Shown here: positions 2,708 to 36,900 of the stretch, one piece after another | Numbering within the stretch: the first letter of the stretch is position 1 | Layout of the letters: the number at the start of each line of letters is the position of its first letter | Assembly: GCA_946186665.1 (NCBI GenBank) | Contig: CAMHOE010000023.1 | Coordinates: forward strand, 1-36,900 | Reading direction: 5' to 3' | Source of the DNA: an uncultured Clostridia bacterium | GTDB lineage: Bacteria > Bacillota > Clostridia > Oscillospirales > Acutalibacteraceae | DNA length: 36,900 nucleotides | Program-made: the position numbers and the translations under genes | Notes under the pieces: model-generated | Seen by the model: the letters and a program-made list of their open reading frames with translations, nothing else | The model's database searches: none | What the model was told of the DNA's origin: nothing

Positions 2708-4360
2708 ATGAAAGATTTCAGCCTGCTTTATCCGAACGATTCCGAACCCAATTACATATTACTGAGTGATGAGACGTGCAATGACTTGTCTATATCACAT
2801 ATCTGTGAGAAGCTTTCCGGACTTGAATTCGAGCAGAATATCATCAAAAACATAATGATAAAGATGGAAAAAGACCCAAAGGTCATCAGCTACCGCCGCG
2901 ATGTGTTCGATGATATATTCCATTTTCCGAAGCTCAGAGAGCGCATGAAGGAGCTTCTTGACGAGCTTGCATATCTTAAGGATCTGGAAAAATCCGTAAA
3001 GGACGCAACAGCCGCACCTATATGGCAGCTCATAAACAGACTTCAGGAGCTTGATATTTATGTAAACTGCATTTCCGGTATCAACGAGTCGCTGACAACG
3101 CATGACATAAAGTCTGAGGGGCTTAAAGAGCTTAAAGAGTTTGTAAGCTCTGTTTATAATGAAAGCGGCTTTGAACACCTGCACGAGGATATTAAGGACC
3201 TTGTTACAGAGATAGGACGGATAAAGAGTATATCTCTCGGTGTGAACCTTGACAGTAAGCTCATGCCTGTAGAGGTGGGAATAGTCTCCCTGAATGACGA
3301 GCCGTTTTCAAGACCCGGACTGCTCAGCAAGTTTCTGGATTTCTCATCGAAAAAGAGCGAGATACACGGCGGCGCGGCATTTGACGGTATGGCAAGGATA
3401 CATACAGTAGGCAAGGTGAGCGGTGAAGACCCTCTCATGTCAAACCTGAGCCGCGTCGTTACCGAAATGCTCAGCACCACAGTAAAACAGCTGAAGAACA
3501 AGCTTTCGCGATACACGAACATCAGCGGATACAGCCTTACAAAGCTCATACCGGAGCTTATCTTCTATATACGTTGGGCGGACTATTTTGAGAAGGTACA
3601 GAATGCCGGAATAGCCGTGTGCAAGCCGGAGATAATTGACCCTGCAAAGCGAGAGATGTACGCAAAGGGACTGTATAATTTCAAGCTTGCCATACAGACC
3701 GTTGACGGCAAAGGCTCTGAGATAATCAACAATGACCTTGAATTCACAAAGGAACACGGCATATATATTATGACAGGACCAAACAGAGGCGGAAAGACCA
3801 CCCTGACACAGGCTGTGGGACTGCTGTTCCTGTTTGCACAGAGCGGAATATACGTTCCTGCGGAAAGCGCGGTGATAAGCCCTGTTGACTGCATATACAC
3901 ACATTTCCCGGCGGACGAAAACAAAACCGTAAATCTTGGCAGACTGGGCGAAGAGTCGAAGCGTATGAGCGAAATATTCGGAATGGCTACAAAAGAGAGT
4001 CTGCTTCTGTTCAATGAATCACTTGCAACGACATCGTTTGCAGAGGGTCTGTATATCGCAAAGGATGTTGTAAAGGCACTGCGCATACTTGGTGCAAGGA
4101 CTATTTTCAACACACATATGCACGAGCTTGCCATGACAGCTGATGAAGTAAACGAGAATGTTGAAGGCGACATGAACGTAGCGAGTCTGATAACAGGCAT
4201 ACACGAAGGAAAGCGTTCCTACAAGATATTCATAGCTCCGCCTGAGGGCGTCAGCTATGCACAGGATATCGCTAAAAAGTACGGTGTCACACTCGACCAG
4301 CTGAAAAATCAAATAGAGCGTGACCGCACTGGAGCGGGTGACCCCGCTGGACGACTTTGA
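2708..4360 (+). CDS. MutS-family ATPase lacking a mismatch-recognition domain
   Basis: Product of 550 residues. Residues of about 20-330 are helical and resemble the MutS core/lever region. Residues of about 345-520 are the MutS domain V ATPase: Walker A GPNRGGKTT (357-365), then PAESAVISPVD, then LLLFNESLATTSFAEG at the Walker B/signature position, then FNTHMHELA. No N-terminal mismatch-binding domain and no C-terminal Smr domain can be seen, so it is neither canonical MutS nor canonical MutS2. The Walker B aspartate is Asn here (FNES), while the following Glu is kept. The last 13 or so residues (RDRTGAGDPAGRL) are encoded by repeat R1 copy C. GAGGG about 8 nt upstream supports the start. 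The specific DNA role is unknown. Confidence 0.85.
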   Translation: MKDFSLLYPNDSEPNYILLSDETCNDLSISHICEKLSGLEFEQNIIKNIMIKMEKDPKVISYRRDVFDDIFHFPKLRERMKELLDELAYLKDLEKSVKDATAAPIWQLINRLQELDIYVNCISGINESLTTHDIKSEGLKELKEFVSSVYNESGFEHLHEDIKDLVTEIGRIKSISLGVNLDSKLMPVEVGIVSLNDEPFSRPGLLSKFLDFSSKKSEIHGGAAFDGMARIHTVGKVSGEDPLMSNLSRVVTEMLSTTVKQLKNKLSRYTNISGYSLTKLIPELIFYIRWADYFEKVQNAGIAVCKPEIIDPAKREMYAKGLYNFKLAIQTVDGKGSEIINNDLEFTKEHGIYIMTGPNRGGKTTLTQAVGLLFLFAQSGIYVPAESAVISPVDCIYTHFPADENKTVNLGRLGEESKRMSEIFGMATKESLLLFNESLATTSFAEGLYIAKDVVKALRILGARTIFNTHMHELAMTADEVNENVEGDMNVASLITGIHEGKRSYKIFIAPPEGVSYAQDIAKKYGVTLDQLKNQIERDRTGAGDPAGRL

Positions 4361-4440
4361 ACGCATCAACTTTTAATAGAGCCATCCGCGTCGCGCTCCT
4401 GAGGGAGCACTTTGGCTATTATTGTAGACGTCCGTAGTTT
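4316..4440 (+). repeat. R1 palindromic repeat, copy C, overlapping the end of the MutS-family gene
   Basis: Two leading hairpin-like segments, GCG-TGAC-CGC and AGCGGG-TGAC-CCCGCT, are followed by GGACGACTTTGAACGCA, CATCCGCGTCGC, the hairpin GCTCC-TGAG-GGAGC (4395-4408), CTTTGGCTATTATTG and TAGACGTCCGTAG. The reading frame passes through the leading hairpins and stops at 4358-4360 inside the element. Confidence 0.8.
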
Positions 4441-4466
4441 CACAGATATCTTTAATACGACAGATA

Positions 4467-4498
4467 AACGCCGCTGCTTTTAATGCAGCGGCGTTTTT
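4467..4498 (+). terminator. Rho-independent terminator downstream of the MutS-family gene
   Basis: AACGCCGCTGC and GCAGCGGCGTT form an 11-bp stem with a 7-nt loop, ending in TTTTT. It sits just beyond repeat copy C. Confidence 0.85.
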
Positions 4499-4898
4499 GC
4501 GCTATTATTGCAGACATCTGTAATTTTAATGTGGAATGTGGAAAGTGGAAAGTGGAATGAATGATGGTATGTTTTCTTACCCCAATGGCACTTCCTACGA
4601 GCGCATAATAAATAAATGAATACTGAAAACTTAAAACTTAAAAATGAATAATAGTGGTACGTTTTCGCTAAAGCGAAAACAATCATAGTAAGTGTAATAA
4701 AAACTATGACTTCATACTGTACAGGCGCATAAAGTTGAATAGGCGTAAAAACTTTGTGTTCGTAAAAAACAGCCGAAACAGCAGCCCCTTTGGGCTGCGC
4801 CGGCGGATGGAGAATAGTGTCCTGCAATTCTGCGCCGTCAATCGCGGACAGGAAAAGCTTCGGTCAGAATATCAGAGTGAGCTTTAGCGAACGAGAAC
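4499..4898. repeat. Gene-free stretch filled with mosaic repeats
   Basis: No credible gene. In order: a fragment like the R1 tail (4501-4525); a 7-bp-period array of GTGGAAT/GTGGAAA (4531-4559); an inverted, degenerate copy of the CCCCAAGGGCACTTCC module (about 4579-4604); a second 7-bp-period array, TGAATAC-TGAAAAC-TTAAAAC type (4617-4654); an R4 element (4655-4745) with hairpin GTTTTCGCT-AA-AGCGAAAAC and the tail ATACTGTACAGGCGCATAAA; and hairpin GCAGCCC-CTTT-GGGCTGC (4781-4798). R4 recurs at 23575-23700 (inverted) and in part at 35257-35300. Confidence 0.6.
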
Positions 4899-4952
4899 GC
4901 GTATCGACAGCGGAGGCACTCCGCCGCGAATCGGGTGCGCAGGCTCTGCGCT
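4899..4952. repeat. Two tandem 27-bp hairpin units
   Basis: Unit 1 (4899-4925) is GCGTATCGAC plus a 17-bp hairpin with stem GCGGAG/CTCCGC and loop GCA. Unit 2 (4926-4952) is GCGAATCGGG plus a 17-bp hairpin with stem GCGCAG/CTGCGC and loop GCT. Unit 2 ends at the stop codon of the minus-strand gene that follows, so in that gene's transcript it would be the first 3' hairpin. Same family as 8203-8249 and 8785-8858. Confidence 0.75.
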
Positions 4953-5815
4953 TATTGAGATGAAGGTATTGTTTTGGGAGATTTTCCGGAGACACTCTTG
5001 TAATCATCATATTCAAATCCGAATGCACTGATGATACCTCCTGCAATAACAAACACACAGCCTGTTATTTCTCCAATAACCGCAGTTCTGCCATCCTCTG
5101 TCATTCTGAGCATCATTCTTTGTACGATGTCCTGAGTAAAATATCCTGATCCTATTGCCCACACAATAACTCCCAGTACAACACACGCTATACCTGCGAT
5201 AACCGCTATGTTCAGACCTTCCTTTGTACTCTGGGTGAAATATAGAATAATCACCGCAAGTACAAGCGTTGTATAAAAACCTATATTTGCTGAAAATGTT
5301 ATTCCAGTAACTCCGTCAGCTGAAAAGATATTCCCCATTATTGCTCCTGCTGCTAATGTGAAAACATTCAGCACAACGCTCATAACAGCAAAGAAATTCT
5401 GTATGGAATATTTTTTCGCAAATGCACAGGCAACCGTTATTATCATACACAATATTATCAGGAGAGGACTTACCATGCAAAAAATGTTAACAAATGATAT
5501 TGCCCGTGAAGCAGACATTGATGCATCTGTTACATCTTCGCCAAAAACGCTGAGCTGAGGGTTCATTCCAGTGACATTGAGAACAACTCCACTGCCCTGA
5601 AACGTAAATGTCGGCAGTACAAAAATCAATATCGCTGCAATAACAGCAAGTATAGTGATGAAAATGGCAGATAGTGATACTGCCCCCGATGCCGCAGATG
5701 CCGCAGATGCCGCAGATGCCTGATCGGGTCCTACAGGAGCTTTAAGTGGATAGAGACATTTTTCGCAGTATTCGTGATTGTCTGAGTTTTTGGTTCCGCA
5801 TTTTTTACATAGCAT
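4952..5815 (-). CDS. Zinc-ribbon multi-pass membrane protein (module 1)
   Basis: Product of 287 residues. An N-terminal zinc ribbon (Cys3, Cys6, Cys17, Cys20) is followed by an Ala/Ser linker and about six hydrophobic segments (roughly 48-70, 107-133, 140-162, 175-193, 200-226, 244-268). This is an integral membrane protein with a cytoplasmic zinc ribbon; the family is not assigned. The start at 5815 follows AAAGGA with suitable spacing. Its promoter (5862-5890) carries operators shared with the divergent XRE gene at 5928, so expression is probably repressed by that XRE protein. The arrangement is repeated at 6301-7911. The two membrane proteins share the zinc ribbon and overall plan but not length. 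Confidence 0.8.
   Translation of the reverse strand: MLCKKCGTKNSDNHEYCEKCLYPLKAPVGPDQASAASAASAASGAVSLSAIFITILAVIAAILIFVLPTFTFQGSGVVLNVTGMNPQLSVFGEDVTDASMSASRAISFVNIFCMVSPLLIILCMIITVACAFAKKYSIQNFFAVMSVVLNVFTLAAGAIMGNIFSADGVTGITFSANIGFYTTLVLAVIILYFTQSTKEGLNIAVIAGIACVVLGVIVWAIGSGYFTQDIVQRMMLRMTEDGRTAVIGEITGCVFVIAGGIISAFGFEYDDYKSVSGKSPKTIPSSQ
5688..5723. repeat. In-gene 9-bp tandem repeat
   Basis: GATGCCGCA is repeated about three and a half times and encodes the Ala-Ser-Ala linker (about 34-43) after the zinc ribbon of the 4952-5815 gene. The unit is a multiple of three, so copy-number change would only lengthen or shorten the linker. Confidence 0.8.
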
Positions 5816-7962: not shown

Positions 7963-8040
7963 GGTGCCGGTCTATACTGAACTCCCTCTATAACAAAAAA
8001 AGAAAAAGCTATATAGAGAATTTATGAAATGACCGGCACC
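7963..8040. other. Structured inverted-repeat element of 78 bp
   Basis: GGTGCCGGTC (7963-7972) pairs perfectly with GACCGGCACC (8031-8040). Inside, CTCTATA (7986-7992) pairs with TATAGAG (8012-8018) around an A-rich loop. It could be a terminator-like structure for the XRE gene, a small RNA or a miniature mobile element; no T-run follows the outer stem. The rest of 7912-8100 is AT-rich with no gene. Confidence 0.5.
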
Positions 8041-8100
8041 AAACTAAAACATACATTATTCCGATTTTGCACAAATGGCACTTACTCCGGACATCGCCTT

Positions 8101-8128
8101 TAATTCCACTTTCCACATTCCACATTTA
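8101..8128. repeat. 7-bp-period array
   Basis: ATTCCAC-TTTCCAC-ATTCCAC-ATTTATT: the reverse-strand form of the GTGGAAT heptamers at 4531-4559 and 25301-25328. Confidence 0.7.
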
Positions 8129-8137
8129 TTATAAGTC

Positions 8138-8165
8138 TTGTATTTTAAAAAAAACGTGTTATAAT
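8138..8165 (+). promoter_or_regulatory. Probable promoter for the DUF1858 gene
   Basis: TTGTAT (8138-8143), 16-bp spacer, TATAAT (8160-8165), about 104 bp before the start codon. The transcript leader would carry the repeat hairpins at 8203-8249. Confidence 0.55.
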
Positions 8166-8202
8166 AATACTATAAATTTTTAGGCACGGAAGCTGACCTC
8201 CT

Positions 8203-8249
8203 GTTACAGCCAAAGCCGTAACGCGAATCGGGAACGGCGGCTCGCCGGC
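8203..8249 (+). repeat. Hairpin plus one 27-bp unit in the DUF1858 leader
   Basis: A 20-bp hairpin with stem GTTACAGC/GCCGTAAC (one mismatch; 8203-8222) is followed by a 27-bp unit: GCGAATCGGG and a hairpin CGGCG-GCT-CGCCG (8223-8249). It ends 5 nt before the ribosome site AAAGGGA (8254-8260). Similarity to the copy inside trmK extends about 15 bp further left, to GGAA(G/A)CTGA. Confidence 0.75.
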
Positions 8250-8268
8250 GCAGAAAGGGATTGTTAAT

Positions 8269-8472
8269 ATGGCACAGATTACAAAAGATACTATAATCGG
8301 AGATATACTTGATATCGACGAAACAACCGCACCGATATTTCTTTCCATCGGTATGCACTGTCTCGGCTGCCCTGCTTCAAGGGGAGAAACAGTAGAACAG
8401 GCTTGCGCTGTTCACGGCGTTGACGCTGACGAACTTGTTAAAATGGTCAACGAACACATTAAGGATAAATAG
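8269..8472 (+). CDS. DUF1858 domain protein
   Basis: A 67-residue protein that is almost entirely a DUF1858 domain: ITKDTIIGDILDIDETTAPIF, then GMHCLGCPASRGETVEQACAVHGVD. The CLGCP motif supplies two closely spaced cysteines, typical of this family, which is described in annotations as a hybrid-cluster or disulfide oxidoreductase-associated domain. The biochemical role is not established. AAAGGGA 8 nt upstream sets the start. The gene stands alone between two repeat elements; its TAG stop touches R1 copy D. Confidence 0.88.
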   Translation: MAQITKDTIIGDILDIDETTAPIFLSIGMHCLGCPASRGETVEQACAVHGVDADELVKMVNEHIKDK

Positions 8473-8580
8473 TGCGTGACCGCACAGGACGACTTAACAA
8501 CGTATCCGCTTCTGATAGAGCCGTCCGCGTCGCGCTCCTGAGGGAGCGCTTTGGCTATTATTGTAGACGTCTACAGCTTT
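8472..8580 (+). repeat. R1 palindromic repeat, copy D
   Basis: Starts on the last base of the DUF1858 stop codon with hairpin GTGCG-TGAC-CGCAC (8472-8485), then GGACGACTTAACAACG, GTCCGCGTC, hairpin GCGCTCC-TGAG-GGAGCGC (8532-8549), CTTTGGCTATTATT and the perfect palindrome GTAGACGTCTAC (8563-8574). The two stems have different sequences from copies A and B but still pair. Confidence 0.82.
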
Positions 8581-8600
8581 CGTTGCAAAACATGGTGTAT

Positions 8601-8628
8601 GCTAATGGCGCATTGCTAATTGCTAATT
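8601..8628. repeat. 7-bp-period array
   Basis: GCTAATG-GCGCATT-GCTAATT-GCTAATT, directly before the terminator at 8644. Confidence 0.65.
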
Positions 8629-8643
8629 TATTAAAGCACTTAG

Positions 8644-8688
8644 GCTTTCGGCTTTGATATATCTTATCATAGCCGGAAGCATTTGTTT
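8644..8688 (+). terminator. Probable terminator before trmK
   Basis: GCTTTCGGCT pairs with AGCCGGAAGC (one G-T pair) around an AT-rich loop that can pair further (TGATA/TATCA), followed by ATTTGTTT. Confidence 0.65.
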
Positions 8689-8690
8689 AT

Positions 8691-8721
8691 GTGCGTGACC
8701 GCACATTGCACATTGCACATT
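8691..8721. repeat. Hairpin and 7-bp-period array before trmK
   Basis: GTGCG-TGAC-CGCAC, the leading hairpin of R1, runs straight into three exact copies of GCACATT (8701-8721), 6 bp before the trmK ribosome site. Two repeat types touch here. Confidence 0.7.
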
Positions 8722-8742
8722 TTTATAAAGGGTCTTGATACA

Positions 8743-9519
8743 ATGGAACAGAAAAAAATCAAAGTCGCGGAAACTGAACCGCCTGTTACAGCCAACGCTG
8801 TAACGCGAATCGGGACCGGCGGCTCGCCGGTGCGAATCGGGAGCGCAGGCTCTGCGCCGATCGATAACAGGATTGCACTTTGTGCGTCGTTTGTGCGTGA
8901 GGGTACAAAGCTTGCGGATGTCGGCACAGACCATGCCTACCTTCCGATAAAGCTTGCATTGGACGGATATATACAGAGCGCAGTGGCTTGCGATGTCCGT
9001 GTGGGTCCCCTTGAAAACGCTAAGAACAATATTATACGCTACGGAGTAGAAAATATTGTAAAGACAAGGCTTTCGGACGGACTGGATGAAATAGCTCCGG
9101 ATGAAGCTTACGATATAGTTATGGCAGGTATGGGCGGTGAGCTTATCGCTGAAATAATAAATCGTACAAAATGGCTGTATGATAACAGATACAGACTTAT
9201 ACTACAGCCTATGACCCGTGCTGAGATACTCAGACCATTTCTGCTTGAAAACGGATTTAATATCGAAAAGGAAAAAGCCTGCATATCCGGCAGAAAATCC
9301 TATTCCGTCATGCAGTGCAGTTATGACGGACAAAAACGCTCCTGCGATGTCCGGACACAATATATCGGACTTCTTGCCGGCGACAGTTCTGAAGAAGCCG
9401 GACGCTATATCGCTTCGGTAACTGCAAAGCTGAAAAGAAAGATAAACGGTCTGCAAAAGTCCGGACAGGATAAGGAAGCGGAAATGTTCTCCGACATCCT
9501 CAGAGAAATAAGTAGGTGA
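8743..9519 (+). CDS. trmK: tRNA (adenine(22)-N1)-methyltransferase
   Basis: S-adenosylmethionine-dependent enzyme forming m1A22 in tRNA. The product is 258 residues. The core starts near residue 41 (DNRIALCASFV). The SAM motif reads LADVGTDHAYLPI, followed by ACDVR and MAGMGGELI, all typical of TrmK. The start at 8743 follows AAAGGG (8727-8732). Known TrmK proteins begin close to the DNR motif, so about 40 residues are extra here. Residues of about 15-39 are encoded by a palindromic repeat (8785-8858), including the near-duplicate RIGTGGSPV and RIGSAGSAP. The insert keeps the frame and leaves the catalytic core untouched. First gene of an operon with nif3 (4-bp gap) and rqcH, the trmK-nif3 pair being common in Firmicutes. 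Confidence 0.93.
   Translation: MEQKKIKVAETEPPVTANAVTRIGTGGSPVRIGSAGSAPIDNRIALCASFVREGTKLADVGTDHAYLPIKLALDGYIQSAVACDVRVGPLENAKNNIIRYGVENIVKTRLSDGLDEIAPDEAYDIVMAGMGGELIAEIINRTKWLYDNRYRLILQPMTRAEILRPFLLENGFNIEKEKACISGRKSYSVMQCSYDGQKRSCDVRTQYIGLLAGDSSEEAGRYIASVTAKLKRKINGLQKSGQDKEAEMFSDILREISR
8785..8858 (+). repeat. Palindromic repeat inside the trmK coding region
   Basis: A 20-bp hairpin with stem GTTACAGC/GCTGTAAC (8785-8804) is followed by two 27-bp units: GCGAATCGGG + hairpin ACCGGCG-GCT-CGCCGGT (8805-8831) and GCGAATCGGG + hairpin GCGCAG-GCT-CTGCGC (8832-8858). Each unit is nine codons, so a unit can be gained or lost without a frameshift. The element is read as 25 or so residues of TrmK. 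Confidence 0.85.
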
Positions 9520-12270: not shown

Positions 12271-15200
12271 ATGAAATCAAAAAAAATGCTGTCTATGTTC
12301 GTGGTGTTTGCCATTATACTCGCAGTTGTAAGTGCAGGCTCAGTAAATGTAGAAGCAAATACAATCGCAGGCACTAAGAGGTGTATCACATCTGAGAATG
12401 AGTATATTAAGCTGTCGGTTGACGAAATGGGAGCATATACTCTTGGTACGACCGGAGAAGGTATTTTTCAACATGATATTGTTAACAAAGCCATGTTGTA
12501 TGGATTTCCTGATACACCCGGAACATCGACCACATCTATCCATGTAGATGGTGAATCTGTTAATTACGGTTTTGAAATATTGCAAACTGATCCGTATTTT
12601 AATGAGGATGGAACTGTCAACACATCAGTACTTGTGTTTAACGATATTCAGGTCACACAGATACTATCTTTTGTTCAAGGACCGGCAACAGGCAGAGAGG
12701 ACGCAATTCAAATAAAATATGAACTTACAAATATAGGAGAAATTTCTCATAATGTCGGTTTGGTTATCAAGCTTGACACAATGCTTGACAAGAATGACGG
12801 TTCGCTGTTCAGAATTAATACAGCTAAAATTGAACGTGAAACCGAATATTCAGGTGAGGATATACCCGAAAACTGGTATTCATTGAGTGATATTGAATCA
12901 AATTTTTTTGATTCTTATGGACAATTAAATAATGGTATAGATCCACCTCCGGATAAAGTTCAGTTTGCAGATTGGAGACATCTTACACTTGATAAACTTA
13001 ATTATGAGGTTGATGAAGATTTTCCGATAGGAGACAGTGCTGTCAATATTATCTGGAATGAAGAAGTACTAAATCCCGGCGAAACAAAAGTGTGTTCTAC
13101 AATTTACGGTTTAAGTGTATCAACAAAAGACTTGGTGCCGCCCCTTGCTGTCAGCTTAAACGCTGATTCAATAGTTCATCCTATTGGAATTAACTATGAA
13201 TACAATTTATTGACTTATGATTTTTTTAATGTTACATGCAGATATAAGAATATTTCGGGAAGGGATGGCAGCAGCACAGTCACAGCAGAAAACGTATTTA
13301 TAGAATTGATTTTGCCTGAATATATGTATATAGAAGCCGGAGATGAAAGTTTAACAAAATATTATCGTTTTACCCCTGAGCAAACAGGTGAATTAAATTG
13401 GGAAATAGCGGTTTCCGAATATATTGAACCGGGTGATTATCCGATAACTATTGTCTGTGGTGCAGATAATTGGGAGACAAAAACCGTAACAAGATATGTA
13501 ACTATATCCGGTAGTTATGTAGATAATACAATATACTCAGAAGAAGACAGATTTCAATTCCATAATAGAACGGAGGATTTTTTTGACGAGTCTGAATCAA
13601 AATATGTTTACAATCTTTCAGATGAATACTACGATTTTCTAATAAAAGATATGAACGAGGATGTAGCACATTGTATAGATAAACAAATAGATTGCACATG
13701 GGAAGGCTCTTGTTATGGGATGAGTGCTGTGACTTCATTGGCGAAGATCGGATATATTCACCCTTCATTCTGGCAAAGTGATGCTGTAAACTTGCATGAC
13801 CTGAATGCGCCTAAAATAAGCAAACAATCCGAAGATTTGGTCAATTTCTATTTTCTGACACAATATCTGCCGGATATAATTGAATTACACCTAACTTACG
13901 AATCAATGGTAACTATAAAACCAGACAAATCCGCAGAAGCATCAATGACTGGTGAAGAACGAGCAAAAAGTGAAAAAGATCGAGCAGAACTTGAAAAAGA
14001 ATTAAGGAAAGAACAACAAAGTACACTGCTGAAAAAATTAGTCAAGGAATCAGGTAAAGTCAAAGATGGTGGTATGCCGGTAGTATTGTCAATAAATTTT
14101 GTTGATGACAAATTGTTTTCAATAGGTCATGCAGTGGTTGCCTTTGACGTAAATAAAGATATGGGTGGTTATGACGTAGGGGATGAGAACACCTATATAT
14201 ATCAGGTTGCAATATACGATTCATCAGAAGATGATCTGCAATATATATATATAAATGAAGATTATACTGAATGGTTCTATACTGCAATGTACACAAAACC
14301 TATATCTGAATATGACGAAAACACATTAACAATTAAGCATGATAATAAATATATAACAGATGCAATGTGTGATATTGGCACAATTGATATTAAGAATCCC
14401 GAAACAATGGAAGACAGGACAATACAAAAGAGATACAATAGAAACTTCATGGACGTTATTAATTTAGCAAGTATGAGAATAACATTTGCAGATGGAACTT
14501 ACTTCAATTCCTACCCCTCAATAACAAAACTATCAGCAAGCTCACCAGAGAGCAAGCCCTACCTCAGACATCAAATCAGTCTTCTTCCTGAGGATGAGGA
14601 AGTGTTTACTGTAACTCCACAGGACGAAAGTACGGAAATAAATGCTTATATGGTTCTTGACGGTTATTTTTTGGATGTTGTAACAAAATACGCCGAGTCA
14701 GCTGTTTATGATAAATCGGGAAGTGTATCTTTATTTGGCAACAAAGGCGAATATGATCTGGAGTTAAGTTTTAATAAAGGCGAAGGTAAAGGTGATTTAT
14801 ACTGGCATTCTGTGCATGTAAATGGTTCGGATGCGAATGAAGCCACTTTGAAAATGGCACAACATGGTATGATTTTTTACTGTGACAATATGCATGATAT
14901 AACCATATTTGCTAAGGATGCAGGTCGTTATGCAGAAAAACTGTACGCCACCTTTTCCACAGATTATGACAGCGTAAATATAAGAAATCTTGATAGGGAC
15001 ACATTCGGCGTCTACATAGACAGTGACAATGACGGCGAATACGAAACGCTGATAGCTGACAGCAACGGCACAGACTACGGCACCTATGAAAAACCTGAGG
15101 ATGAAGAACCAACTCCATCCGAACCGGAAAGCAGTACACCCACAAGCGCACCTGCCGATGAAACAAGCAAGGATGAAAGAAGAGATGAAAACAAAACAGA

Positions 15201-15567
15201 AACTGCATCCGACACCTCTGCAATGGAAACAAGCGATGACAAAGACAGCAGTAAAACCGAAACATCATACGAAGCTGAAAGCAACAGTGACATTTCCACC
15301 AGTGAATACGAAACCAAGATCATAAGCGGTGCTGAAAGCGGCAGTATAGATAAAATCTCAGACCCGCAAAACAGCAACATTGACGAAACCGAAAGTGACA
15401 CTGCCTCATCACAAAAAATCGATAGTACAAATAATGGTGCAATCAATAAGGACGGTTCCCCACTGTTTACAGGAGAAAACAGCATACTGTTTATAACAGT
15501 TCTTGCTGTATGTTTGATTACGTCTGGTGTTTTGGTCACAATTAAACTTTCAAGGCGCAGTAAATAA
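12271..15567 (+). CDS. Large secreted, membrane-anchored cysteine-protease-like protein
   Basis: Product of 1098 residues. The signal peptide (about 1-29) is followed by a beta-rich N-terminal domain (about 36-285) and a CARDB/Ig-like domain (about 295-425). A papain-like region (about 445-690) has Cys481 in GSCYGMS, His620 in IGHAVVAF and Asp650 in AIYDSS: order and spacing fit a Cys-His-Asp triad. A C-terminal domain (about 757-925) with DSDNDGEYET and a Ser/Thr/Glu-rich stalk (about 930-1060) follow. The end SPLFTGENS, a hydrophobic segment and RRSK resembles a sortase signal, but LFTGE is not a canonical LPXTG. Probably a surface protease or peptide-binding enzyme; substrate unknown. It shares the C-terminal domain, stalk and anchor with the next gene. 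Confidence 0.75.
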   Translation: MKSKKMLSMFVVFAIILAVVSAGSVNVEANTIAGTKRCITSENEYIKLSVDEMGAYTLGTTGEGIFQHDIVNKAMLYGFPDTPGTSTTSIHVDGESVNYGFEILQTDPYFNEDGTVNTSVLVFNDIQVTQILSFVQGPATGREDAIQIKYELTNIGEISHNVGLVIKLDTMLDKNDGSLFRINTAKIERETEYSGEDIPENWYSLSDIESNFFDSYGQLNNGIDPPPDKVQFADWRHLTLDKLNYEVDEDFPIGDSAVNIIWNEEVLNPGETKVCSTIYGLSVSTKDLVPPLAVSLNADSIVHPIGINYEYNLLTYDFFNVTCRYKNISGRDGSSTVTAENVFIELILPEYMYIEAGDESLTKYYRFTPEQTGELNWEIAVSEYIEPGDYPITIVCGADNWETKTVTRYVTISGSYVDNTIYSEEDRFQFHNRTEDFFDESESKYVYNLSDEYYDFLIKDMNEDVAHCIDKQIDCTWEGSCYGMSAVTSLAKIGYIHPSFWQSDAVNLHDLNAPKISKQSEDLVNFYFLTQYLPDIIELHLTYESMVTIKPDKSAEASMTGEERAKSEKDRAELEKELRKEQQSTLLKKLVKESGKVKDGGMPVVLSINFVDDKLFSIGHAVVAFDVNKDMGGYDVGDENTYIYQVAIYDSSEDDLQYIYINEDYTEWFYTAMYTKPISEYDENTLTIKHDNKYITDAMCDIGTIDIKNPETMEDRTIQKRYNRNFMDVINLASMRITFADGTYFNSYPSITKLSASSPESKPYLRHQISLLPEDEEVFTVTPQDESTEINAYMVLDGYFLDVVTKYAESAVYDKSGSVSLFGNKGEYDLELSFNKGEGKGDLYWHSVHVNGSDANEATLKMAQHGMIFYCDNMHDITIFAKDAGRYAEKLYATFSTDYDSVNIRNLDRDTFGVYIDSDNDGEYETLIADSNGTDYGTYEKPEDEEPTPSEPESSTPTSAPADETSKDERRDENKTETASDTSAMETSDDKDSSKTETSYEAESNSDISTSEYETKIISGAESGSIDKISDPQNSNIDETESDTASSQKIDSTNNGAINKDGSPLFTGENSILFITVLAVCLITSGVLVTIKLSRRSK

Positions 15568-16700
15568 ATATGAAATAAAAGGAGCGAGGAATATGAAAAA
15601 GAGAATAGTATCAAGATTATCGTTTTTTTGTATTCTGACTTTAATGTTCATATTTTGCTGTAGTATAAATGTTTTGGCTATGGAAAGCTCACCAGAAAGC
15701 AAGCCTTACCTCAGACATCAAATCAGTCTTCTTCCTGAGGATCAGGAAGTGTTTACTGTAACTCCACAGAACGGAAGTACAGAAATAGACGGTTGTATGG
15801 TTCTTGATGGATATTACCTAGAAGTTGTCACTAATAATGCAAAATCGGCTGTTTATGATAAATCGGGAAAAATTTCTATTTTTGATAATATTGGTGAGTA
15901 TTACCTGAAACTGGGTTTTATTGAAGGTAAGGGCAACCTGAATTGGTGTTCTGTAAAAGCAATTGGTTCGGACGCAAAAGAAGCTACTTTAGAAATGGCT
16001 CCACAAGGTATGATACTCACCAGTGAGAATTTGCATAATATAACATTGGAAGTTGGTGACCCATTTGAAGAAAAACTGTACGCAACCTTTTCCACAGATT
16101 ATGACAGCGTAAATATAAGAAATCTTGATAGGGACACATTCGGCGTCTACATAGACAGTGACAATGACGGCGAATACGAAACGCTGATAGCTGACAGCAA
16201 CGGCACAGACTACGGCACCTATGAAAAACCTGAGGATGAAGAACCAACTCCATCCGAACCGGAAAGCAGTACACCCACAAGCGCACCTGCCGATGAAACA
16301 AGCAGGGATGAAAGCAGAGACGAAAGCAAAACAGAAATTATAGCTGAAACCTCTGACAAAGAAACAAGCGATGACAAAGACAGCAGTAAAACCGAAGCAT
16401 CATACGAAGCCGAAAGCAACAGTGACATTTCCACCGGTGACCACGAAACCAAGATCATAAGCGGTGCTGAAAGCGGCAGTATAGATAGAACCTCAGACCC
16501 GCAAAACAGCAACATTGACGAAACCGAAAGTGACACTGCCCCGTCACAAAAAATCGATGGTACAAATAATAGTACAATAAGTGAGGACAATTCCCCACTG
16601 TTTACGGGAGAAAACAGCATACTGTTTATAACAGTTCTTGCGGTATGTGTAACTACCGCCGCTGTCTTACTGATCGTAAGTCTTTCAAAGCGCAGAAGAA
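14541..16700 (+). repeat. Tandem partial duplication of the C-terminal coding part
   Basis: The 3' part of the first secreted-protein gene (14541-15567) is repeated in the second (15687-16708). The first 100 bp or so and the stretch 14941-15175 versus 16075-16309 are almost identical, while the middle (about 14650-14935 versus 15795-16070) is clearly diverged. The stalk and anchor parts show scattered changes. Confidence 0.85.
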
Positions 16701-36793: not shown

Positions 36794-36900
36794 TCACTTT
36801 ATTCTACCACATCCTCCCAACAATATCAACCCCGGTGCAAGGCTTGCACACGTCAATCTAATTCAGACATCAAAATGATACAAAGTTTAATAAGATGTCA
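36794..36900. other. AT-rich window end, no gene seen
   Basis: About 107 bp with no open frame or clear signal; it presumably holds the trmFO promoter region. Confidence 0.4.

Follow-up and report, generated by a model that had tools for sequence, protein, structure and literature searches.

In-frame palindromic repeats are best known from Rickettsia and other Proteobacteria. The Rickettsia palindromic elements (RPE), 100-150 bp in length, are found in Rickettsia and Wolbachia and, according to excerpts of the published accounts, nearly half of them lie within open reading frames (ORFs) in R. conorii (PMC3767692, PMC10969869). Excerpts of PMC3733652 describe REP elements within ORFs of several species, where dimers or groups encode 20-30 residues and clusters 43-82 residues, and indicate that REP ends may supply stop codons as well as N- and C-terminal residues. 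BOX of Streptococcus pneumoniae is described as a composite repeat in which a flanking module is joined to middle modules that stand in tandem and vary in number (PMC3049150), and the enterobacterial RU as intergenic repeats with open frames that also occur within genes (PMC2759123). Here, we describe a modular hairpin repeat from the genome of an uncultured Clostridia bacterium, one copy of which lies in the 5' end of trmK in the 36,900-nucleotide stretch of DNA that was analysed (hereafter, the window). No description of this family was found in the literature searched, the scope of which left out most subscription papers, and the papers listed as containing its bare 10-base spacer (5 of 16) were unrelated, as judged by title and the start of the abstract.

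The repeat within trmK

The trmK gene (8743..9519, forward strand, 258 codons from ATG 8743) encodes a tRNA (adenine-22-N1)-methyltransferase, as identified by comparison with relatives and by profile matches of its translation to Pfam PF04816 (E 1.3e-39) and PF12847 (E 1.6e-50). Its codons 7-38 are made of repeat, one hairpin and two 27-bp units, all in frame, and the N-terminus reads MEQKKI KVAETEPPVTANAVT RIGTGGSPV RIGSAGSAP I, followed by DNRIALCASFV, the start of the part common to TrmK relatives, with conserved sequence from codon 41. The hairpin, GTTACAGC-CAAC-GCTGTAAC (8785..8804, forward strand), forms the end of a left module of type B (see below), as indicated by its sequence, RNA fold and module class. 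Unit 1, GCGAATCGGG-ACCGGCG-GCT-CGCCGGT (8805..8831, forward strand), has seven stem pairs and yields the peptide RIGTGGSPV, while unit 2, GCGAATCGGG-AGCGCAG-GCT-CTGCGCC (8832..8858, forward strand), has six and yields RIGSAGSAP. The hairpin and the two tandem units that the earlier note had placed in the trmK frame at 8785-8858 are directly visible, and both nine-codon, frame-neutral units can be read in the translation; the 7-bp arms ascribed to them hold for unit 1, but those of unit 2 are 6 bp long, its outermost A and C being unpaired. The predicted RNA fold of positions 8766-8862 was better than that of all 200 shuffled sequences (z -2.77). A promoter and terminator scan of positions 8000-8900 had no usable outcome, and the search for known RNA families in 8000-9000 returned only two matches, far below the gathering score.

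TrmK was found in 59 of the 64 genomes of the genus. The loci read comprised 30 of these 59 (including the one studied here) and 80 named loci, which gave 90 distinct relatives, namely 29 genus loci plus the named ones, the nearest of the latter bearing the titles Ruminococcaceae or Ruminococcus. None of the 90 has a 27-bp unit before the TrmK core, where the open stretch is shorter than 40 codons in 77 of them; counting only starts three or more codons ahead of the core, the nearest lies at a median distance of 5 codons (n=85 relatives, maximum 18). Weak spacer matches in two loci (L037 and L079) have no hairpin and lie, by eye, within the DUF1858 gene. The comparison of TrmK homologues proposed in the earlier note finds the extension missing in the relatives compared. 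Judging from these comparisons, the extension is peculiar to this genome among the genomes examined.

The sequences flanking the repeat resemble the intact N-terminus of a relative (MEQKKI...PI-DNR here, MRKQQIPL-DER in L159), and x-P-L immediately precedes the core in 11 of the 29 relatives from the genus, where the present protein has A-P-I after the repeat. The DUF1858 gene (8269..8472, forward strand; Pfam PF08984, E 1.5e-23) normally stands upstream of trmK in this genus, as it does in 28 of the 29 relative loci, and the distance from its stop codon to the TrmK core is 390 bp here versus 13-160 bp in 28 relatives. Because of the short N-termini of relatives, the matching flanks and this longer distance, an insertion into trmK of about 96 bp (32 codons), with ends uncertain by several bases, is favoured. 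The putative segment spans 8761..8856 on the forward strand; the part common to a sister copy (see below) begins at 8768, and the whole would measure about 91-96 bp. As the closest TrmK is only 68-70% identical, an empty site at the DNA level is absent among the genomes compared. In an AlphaFold2 model built from 44 sequences, residues 1-40 have no secondary structure (pLDDT 42-64 per ten-residue block), and the core is confidently modelled from residue 41 (pLDDT 96-99); as the other 43 rows start only at the core, part of the low confidence ahead of it is to be expected. The model fits a disordered, floppy tail outside the enzyme fold.

A family of tandem hairpin units and its genomic placement

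The unit comprises 27 bp in total, a nearly constant 10-base spacer, GCGAATCGGG, followed by a stem-loop. Its occurrence elsewhere in the genome, on which the earlier note had made its reading depend, was confirmed by 125 sites matching the strict pattern with at most one mismatch, versus 0 for the reversed pattern; the spacer alone, also with at most one mismatch, gave 226 sites versus 26. In the 36.9-kb window taken by itself, the 10-mer with up to two mismatches was not enriched (14 found, 22.6 expected). At the 102 exact-spacer sites of the fetched loci, taken regardless of their pairing, all six inner pairs are present in 71 and at least five in 88, compared with 0.09% and 0.67% of random 17-mers, respectively. 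Covariation was analysed in 82 distinct units from this genome and its relatives, a set preselected for at least five of seven stem pairs. The two sides of the stem vary in concert: two-sided changes were counted in 100 cells versus 34.9 in shuffles, and the covariation score was 0.521 versus 0.204, with slid partners not exceeding 0.086. Two further measures were less discriminating, as 70 of 500 shuffles attained the number of pairs with two-sided change (7) and 13 of 500 the measure based on further pair types. In 61 of the 82 units the outermost bases do not pair, and the loop is GCT in 60, GCC in 14 and something else in 8. Of the constant spacer, changeable stems and constant loop described earlier, the first two therefore stand, the spacer being nearly constant, while the loop is constant only in part. 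The openness of units in all six frames was dismissed as a special adaptation, since 31-60% of shuffled versions of seven units are equally open.

To be counted, arrays had to combine a spacer carrying no more than one mismatch with five or more of seven stem pairs, a rule that leaves out hairpins broken by another element (e.g., L118, L126 and L132) and a degenerate unit at 4899. In this genome, they were collected from the stretches around 100 of the 226 near-matches and from contigs C61 and C93, and 119 units in 86 arrays were counted among the matches listed. The left module of 60 arrays (type A) ends in GAGTGAGC...CGAACG or a longer form, and that of 13 (type B), including the trmK copy, in GCTGTAGC, GTCGTAAC or similar; the remaining 13 were not classed. 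The left module form with the GTTACAGC arm has only two mismatch-free matches in the 64 genus genomes, one in trmK and the other in the leader of the DUF1858 gene. This sister copy (8187..8251, forward strand; repeat family D13) consists of a left module and one unit, lies about 20 bp upstream of the DUF1858 start and is 89% identical to positions 8-73 of the 98-base trmK query; the earlier note had reported the same hairpin and unit at 8203-8249, and the copy is indeed there, with less perfect arms. Similarly, the two tandem units reported at 4899-4952 (forward strand) comprise a degenerate first one, with spacer GCGTATCGAC, and a canonical second one (4926-4952), the array ending on the last base of an opposite-strand gene (4952-5815). 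A spacer with one mismatch, GCGAATTGGG, was also seen at 2552-2561, outside the counted arrays. Five contigs of the assembly (C2, C11, C20, C61 and C93) begin or end in units or within a few tens of bases of them; the assembly seems to break at units, so that array lengths may be wrong.

Other repeats were observed in the same DNA. A probable MITE of 214 bp, the inverted ends of which read ACGTCAATCTAATT, occurs in the window (36850-36900) and in L117, L118, L121, L126, L132, L182, L184 and L188. Six of its eight complete copies in the fetched loci of this genome lie inside or next to unit hairpins, those of L117 and L188 being the exceptions, and the copy starting at 36850 comes after a hairpin-like CCGGTGCAAGGCTTGCAC; unit hairpins may be a favoured target of this element. 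Further hairpin-like repeat families with several copies (D3, D4, D6, D7 and D18; e.g., GTGCGTGACCGCAC and CGCGTCGCGCTCCTGAGGGAGCGC...) were found at 2347-2659, 4311-4526 and 8467-8579, including copies between DUF1858 and trmK. Finally, stretches within 14538-16365 are repeated 1135-1147 bp apart with 73-95% identity (D1, D2 and D5), across the end of one ORF, of 1098 aa, and the ORF that follows it.

With up to one mismatch, the strict unit pattern had no match in a sample of 390 other genomes of the class, eight of them from the same family and none from the same genus. With a looser pattern, matches were obtained in 19 of 60 other same-genus genomes versus two of 38 others of the order, the three matches in the latter not looking like units. 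For 17 of these 19 genomes, arrays with hairpins could be verified, based on 57 of 67 same-genus places, ten near contig ends being left out; three fetched stretches (L240, L277 and L284) had no such array. These searches support a repeat family that, apart from the three unit-unlike matches, appears restricted to one genus in the genomes searched.

Genes were called with a home-made hexamer script on the 73 fetched stretches and the window. Among the matches listed, 77 of 86 arrays are intergenic even though 78% of the fetched sequence was called coding, and in relatives 62 of 66 are intergenic, the other four overlapping a gene end by one or two bases. Protein invasion, by which the earlier note had characterized the family, is not supported as its general character; the proposed count of units inside and outside genes gave a large majority outside, trmK being the single same-strand case among the 86 arrays. 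The 3' (unit) side of arrays lies at a median of 107 bp from a gene, compared with 491 bp for the 5' side (73 arrays, p 4e-10), and units are co-directional in 21 of 25 spaces between genes of one direction (p 0.0009), p values to be read with the caveat that arrays sharing one intergenic space are not independent. Promoter-like sequences occur within 70 bp of the 3' end in 25 of 86 arrays versus 517 of 13,370 intergenic 70-mers (3.9%), a control drawn from all intergenic 70-mers and not just those near gene starts. At the 3' ends of tRNA and tmRNA genes, the hairpin was observed to begin within one or two bases in five of six relatives' loci checked: L235, L257, L259, L273 and L280 have unit arms TGCGGCG/CGCCGCT at tmRNA, tRNA-Arg(CCG) or tRNA-Leu(CAA) 3' ends, and the sixth, L239, has no tRNA call.

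Nine of the 86 arrays overlap a called gene among the matches listed: trmK on the same strand, four tails on the opposite strand, and four by only one or two bases, so that in five the contribution to a gene exceeds one or two bases. The four tails, identified through Pfam, belong to QueH, RsmH, SpoIID and an EamA transporter, the 3' ends of which are overlapped over 27-54 bp by arrays on the opposite strand. In comparison with 19 relatives read for each, QueH ends 47 residues after its CGC-x-x-S motif (2-22 in relatives), RsmH 22 residues after RSRSAKLRCC (3-10 in relatives) with the tail ARLAHPIRGGVPPLSIRAAASE, and SpoIID 25 residues after a YY pair (4-14 in relatives). These longer tails indicate that the repeat does write protein sequence, but rarely and at protein ends. 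Some other candidates were discarded. Long ORFs over units in L138 and L114 have Pfam domains that start downstream of the units, with a promoter-like sequence after the unit in L138, and both were read as non-coding; a 10-mer site inside a long open frame in L103 has no hairpin. Overall, the family is a modular palindromic repeat located mostly outside genes which, like REP and Rickettsia elements, supplies a protein end from time to time.

Origin of the trmK copy

A copy of a non-autonomous modular hairpin repeat probably entered trmK after six codons, a tolerated change that would give the protein about 32 translated residues. The family combines a left module with one to five units of 27 bp, each with the constant 10-base spacer and a stem-loop, and sits mainly between genes, with its unit end near a promoter or a gene 3' end. 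The copy in trmK would have landed in frame after codon six, in a variable, non-conserved N-terminal tail, and could be tolerated there because it has no stop codon, is a multiple of three bases and falls in a region that is not conserved. Spread may be mediated by some enzyme acting in trans, arrays may grow in tandem through slippage at the hairpins, and the element would persist where it does little harm. For TrmK itself, the extension most likely has no role and is a tolerated passenger tail; at gene edges, the hairpins may, as RNA or DNA, affect mRNA ends or transcription.

We infer that the extension is translated from ATG 8743, which is followed by EQKKI, similar to the start of a relative (MRKQQI). 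The sole in-frame ATG, GTG or TTG between the left end of the repeat and the core is GTG 8830, at the unit junction. Initiation at this codon, which would turn most of the repeat into an untranslated leader with only unit 2 adding a tail, is unlikely in our view. It is in frame, 11 codons before the core and hence within the range of nearest starts in relatives (3-18), and its Shine-Dalgarno pairing energy equals that of ATG 8743 (-5.8 kcal/mol, the GTG being taken one base off); the excerpted PMC3733652 further cautions that many N-terminal REPs may be extragenic because of later starts. However, the RNA fold has two of the three bases of the GTG in pairs at the foot of the unit 1 stem and, as the sole alternative start, it would still leave at least unit 2 within the protein. 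A start near codon 41, which the earlier note held to be fatal to its reading, is countered by the lack of any in-frame start between GTG 8830 and the core. As to how the repeat reached trmK, the copy in the DUF1858 leader, at a distance of about 580 bp, could have been duplicated locally, a possibility we regard as less probable than not, and one compatible with the main protein reading. Both copies have a common left module that has no third perfect match in the 64 genus genomes, and they are 89% alike over about 66 bases, but the unit pair of trmK is closest to a dispersed array on contig C30 (96% over 56 bases), the leader copy has only one unit, and the left-module junction of trmK resembles that of 11 other type B arrays.

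That the segment results from a repeat consensus wrongly joined into trmK during assembly is highly improbable: the assembly is fragmented (101 contigs, several ending in units), but the reading frame of trmK runs unbroken through the segment, the genes on either side are in genus order, and the left module form is perfect only in trmK and its sister copy. Hardly more credible is the reading of the repeat as a REP that owes its mobility to a REP-associated tyrosine transposase (RAYT). According to the excerpted PMC3733652, REPs are hairpins of 20-40 bp, mostly extragenic and sometimes inside or at the ends of ORFs. PF01797 (Y1) was detected in 17 of the 64 genus genomes, including unit-bearing ones (G018, G019, G026 and G059), and in this genome as one frame with an internal stop (C5, E 1.5e-31), perhaps left over from a former mobiliser, and one fragment below cut-off. 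Yet there is no conserved GTAG or CGTC tag, these motifs being found in two and four of the 82 units, respectively, inside the stem-loop. RAYT mobilisation was rejected as Y1 transposases and units show no association among same-genus genomes, matches being found in five of 19 unit-bearing versus 10 of 41 other genomes; G012, G034 and G039 have many units and no Y1, while G020 has seven Y1 and no unit. Delivery might be selective for gene boundaries, the 3' end of the units stopping time and again a few bases at most from stop codons and tRNA or tmRNA 3' ends, or shortly before promoters, with slips extending five proteins. We consider this quite unlikely; if true, a slipped aim would write nine-codon modules, N-terminal on TrmK and C-terminal on QueH, RsmH, SpoIID and EamA. 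A viral or plasmid origin was set aside, as the exact unit pattern had no match in the viral contigs searched and the 98-base trmK segment none in the plasmids searched.

Comparison with known repeat systems

The likeness to Rickettsia elements raised in the earlier note holds for the effect. In the excerpted accounts, RPE (RPE-1 to RPE-3 in ORFs) are palindromic repeats in protein genes that leave the frame intact and add tens of residues, as the trmK copy would. In contrast, size, host and ORF share differ: the unit here is 27 bp long, the host is another, and one of 86 arrays among the matches listed lies on the coding strand of a gene. REP/BIME elements, described in the excerpts of PMC3733652 as 20-40 bp hairpins that are mostly extragenic, clustered and near gene ends, are matched in being extragenic (77 of 86 arrays), clustered (119 units) and hairpin-forming (stem covariation), again among the matches listed. 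Unlike them, the present family has no conserved GTAG/CGTC tag and no association with Y1, and its units in this genome follow one another head to tail at a constant period of 27 bp; GTAGC does occur right ahead of the spacer at the end of some type B left modules, but not in the 60 type A arrays. Its left module followed by n tandem units recalls the make-up of BOX, a composite Firmicute repeat of the order boxA, n boxB, boxC, but neither a right-hand boxC-like module nor terminal inverted repeats were identified in the arrays, and the likeness is one of description only. The RU units are far longer (103-168 bp, in enterobacteria, in the portion of the account cited).

This repeat works like RPE and REP elements but is filed with neither, as its host and size are not those of RPE and the tag and RAYT of REP are missing. 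It offers five concrete decorated proteins with testable tails (TrmK, QueH, RsmH, SpoIID and EamA) and many natural copies with two-sided stem changes, a material for studying how hairpins spread and multiply without a found partner transposase. Similar in-frame palindromic repeats being known in other bacteria, it seems to represent a new family within a type already described, and adds to these systems a palindromic family, restricted to one genus and built in tandem, from a Ruminococcus-like Firmicute.
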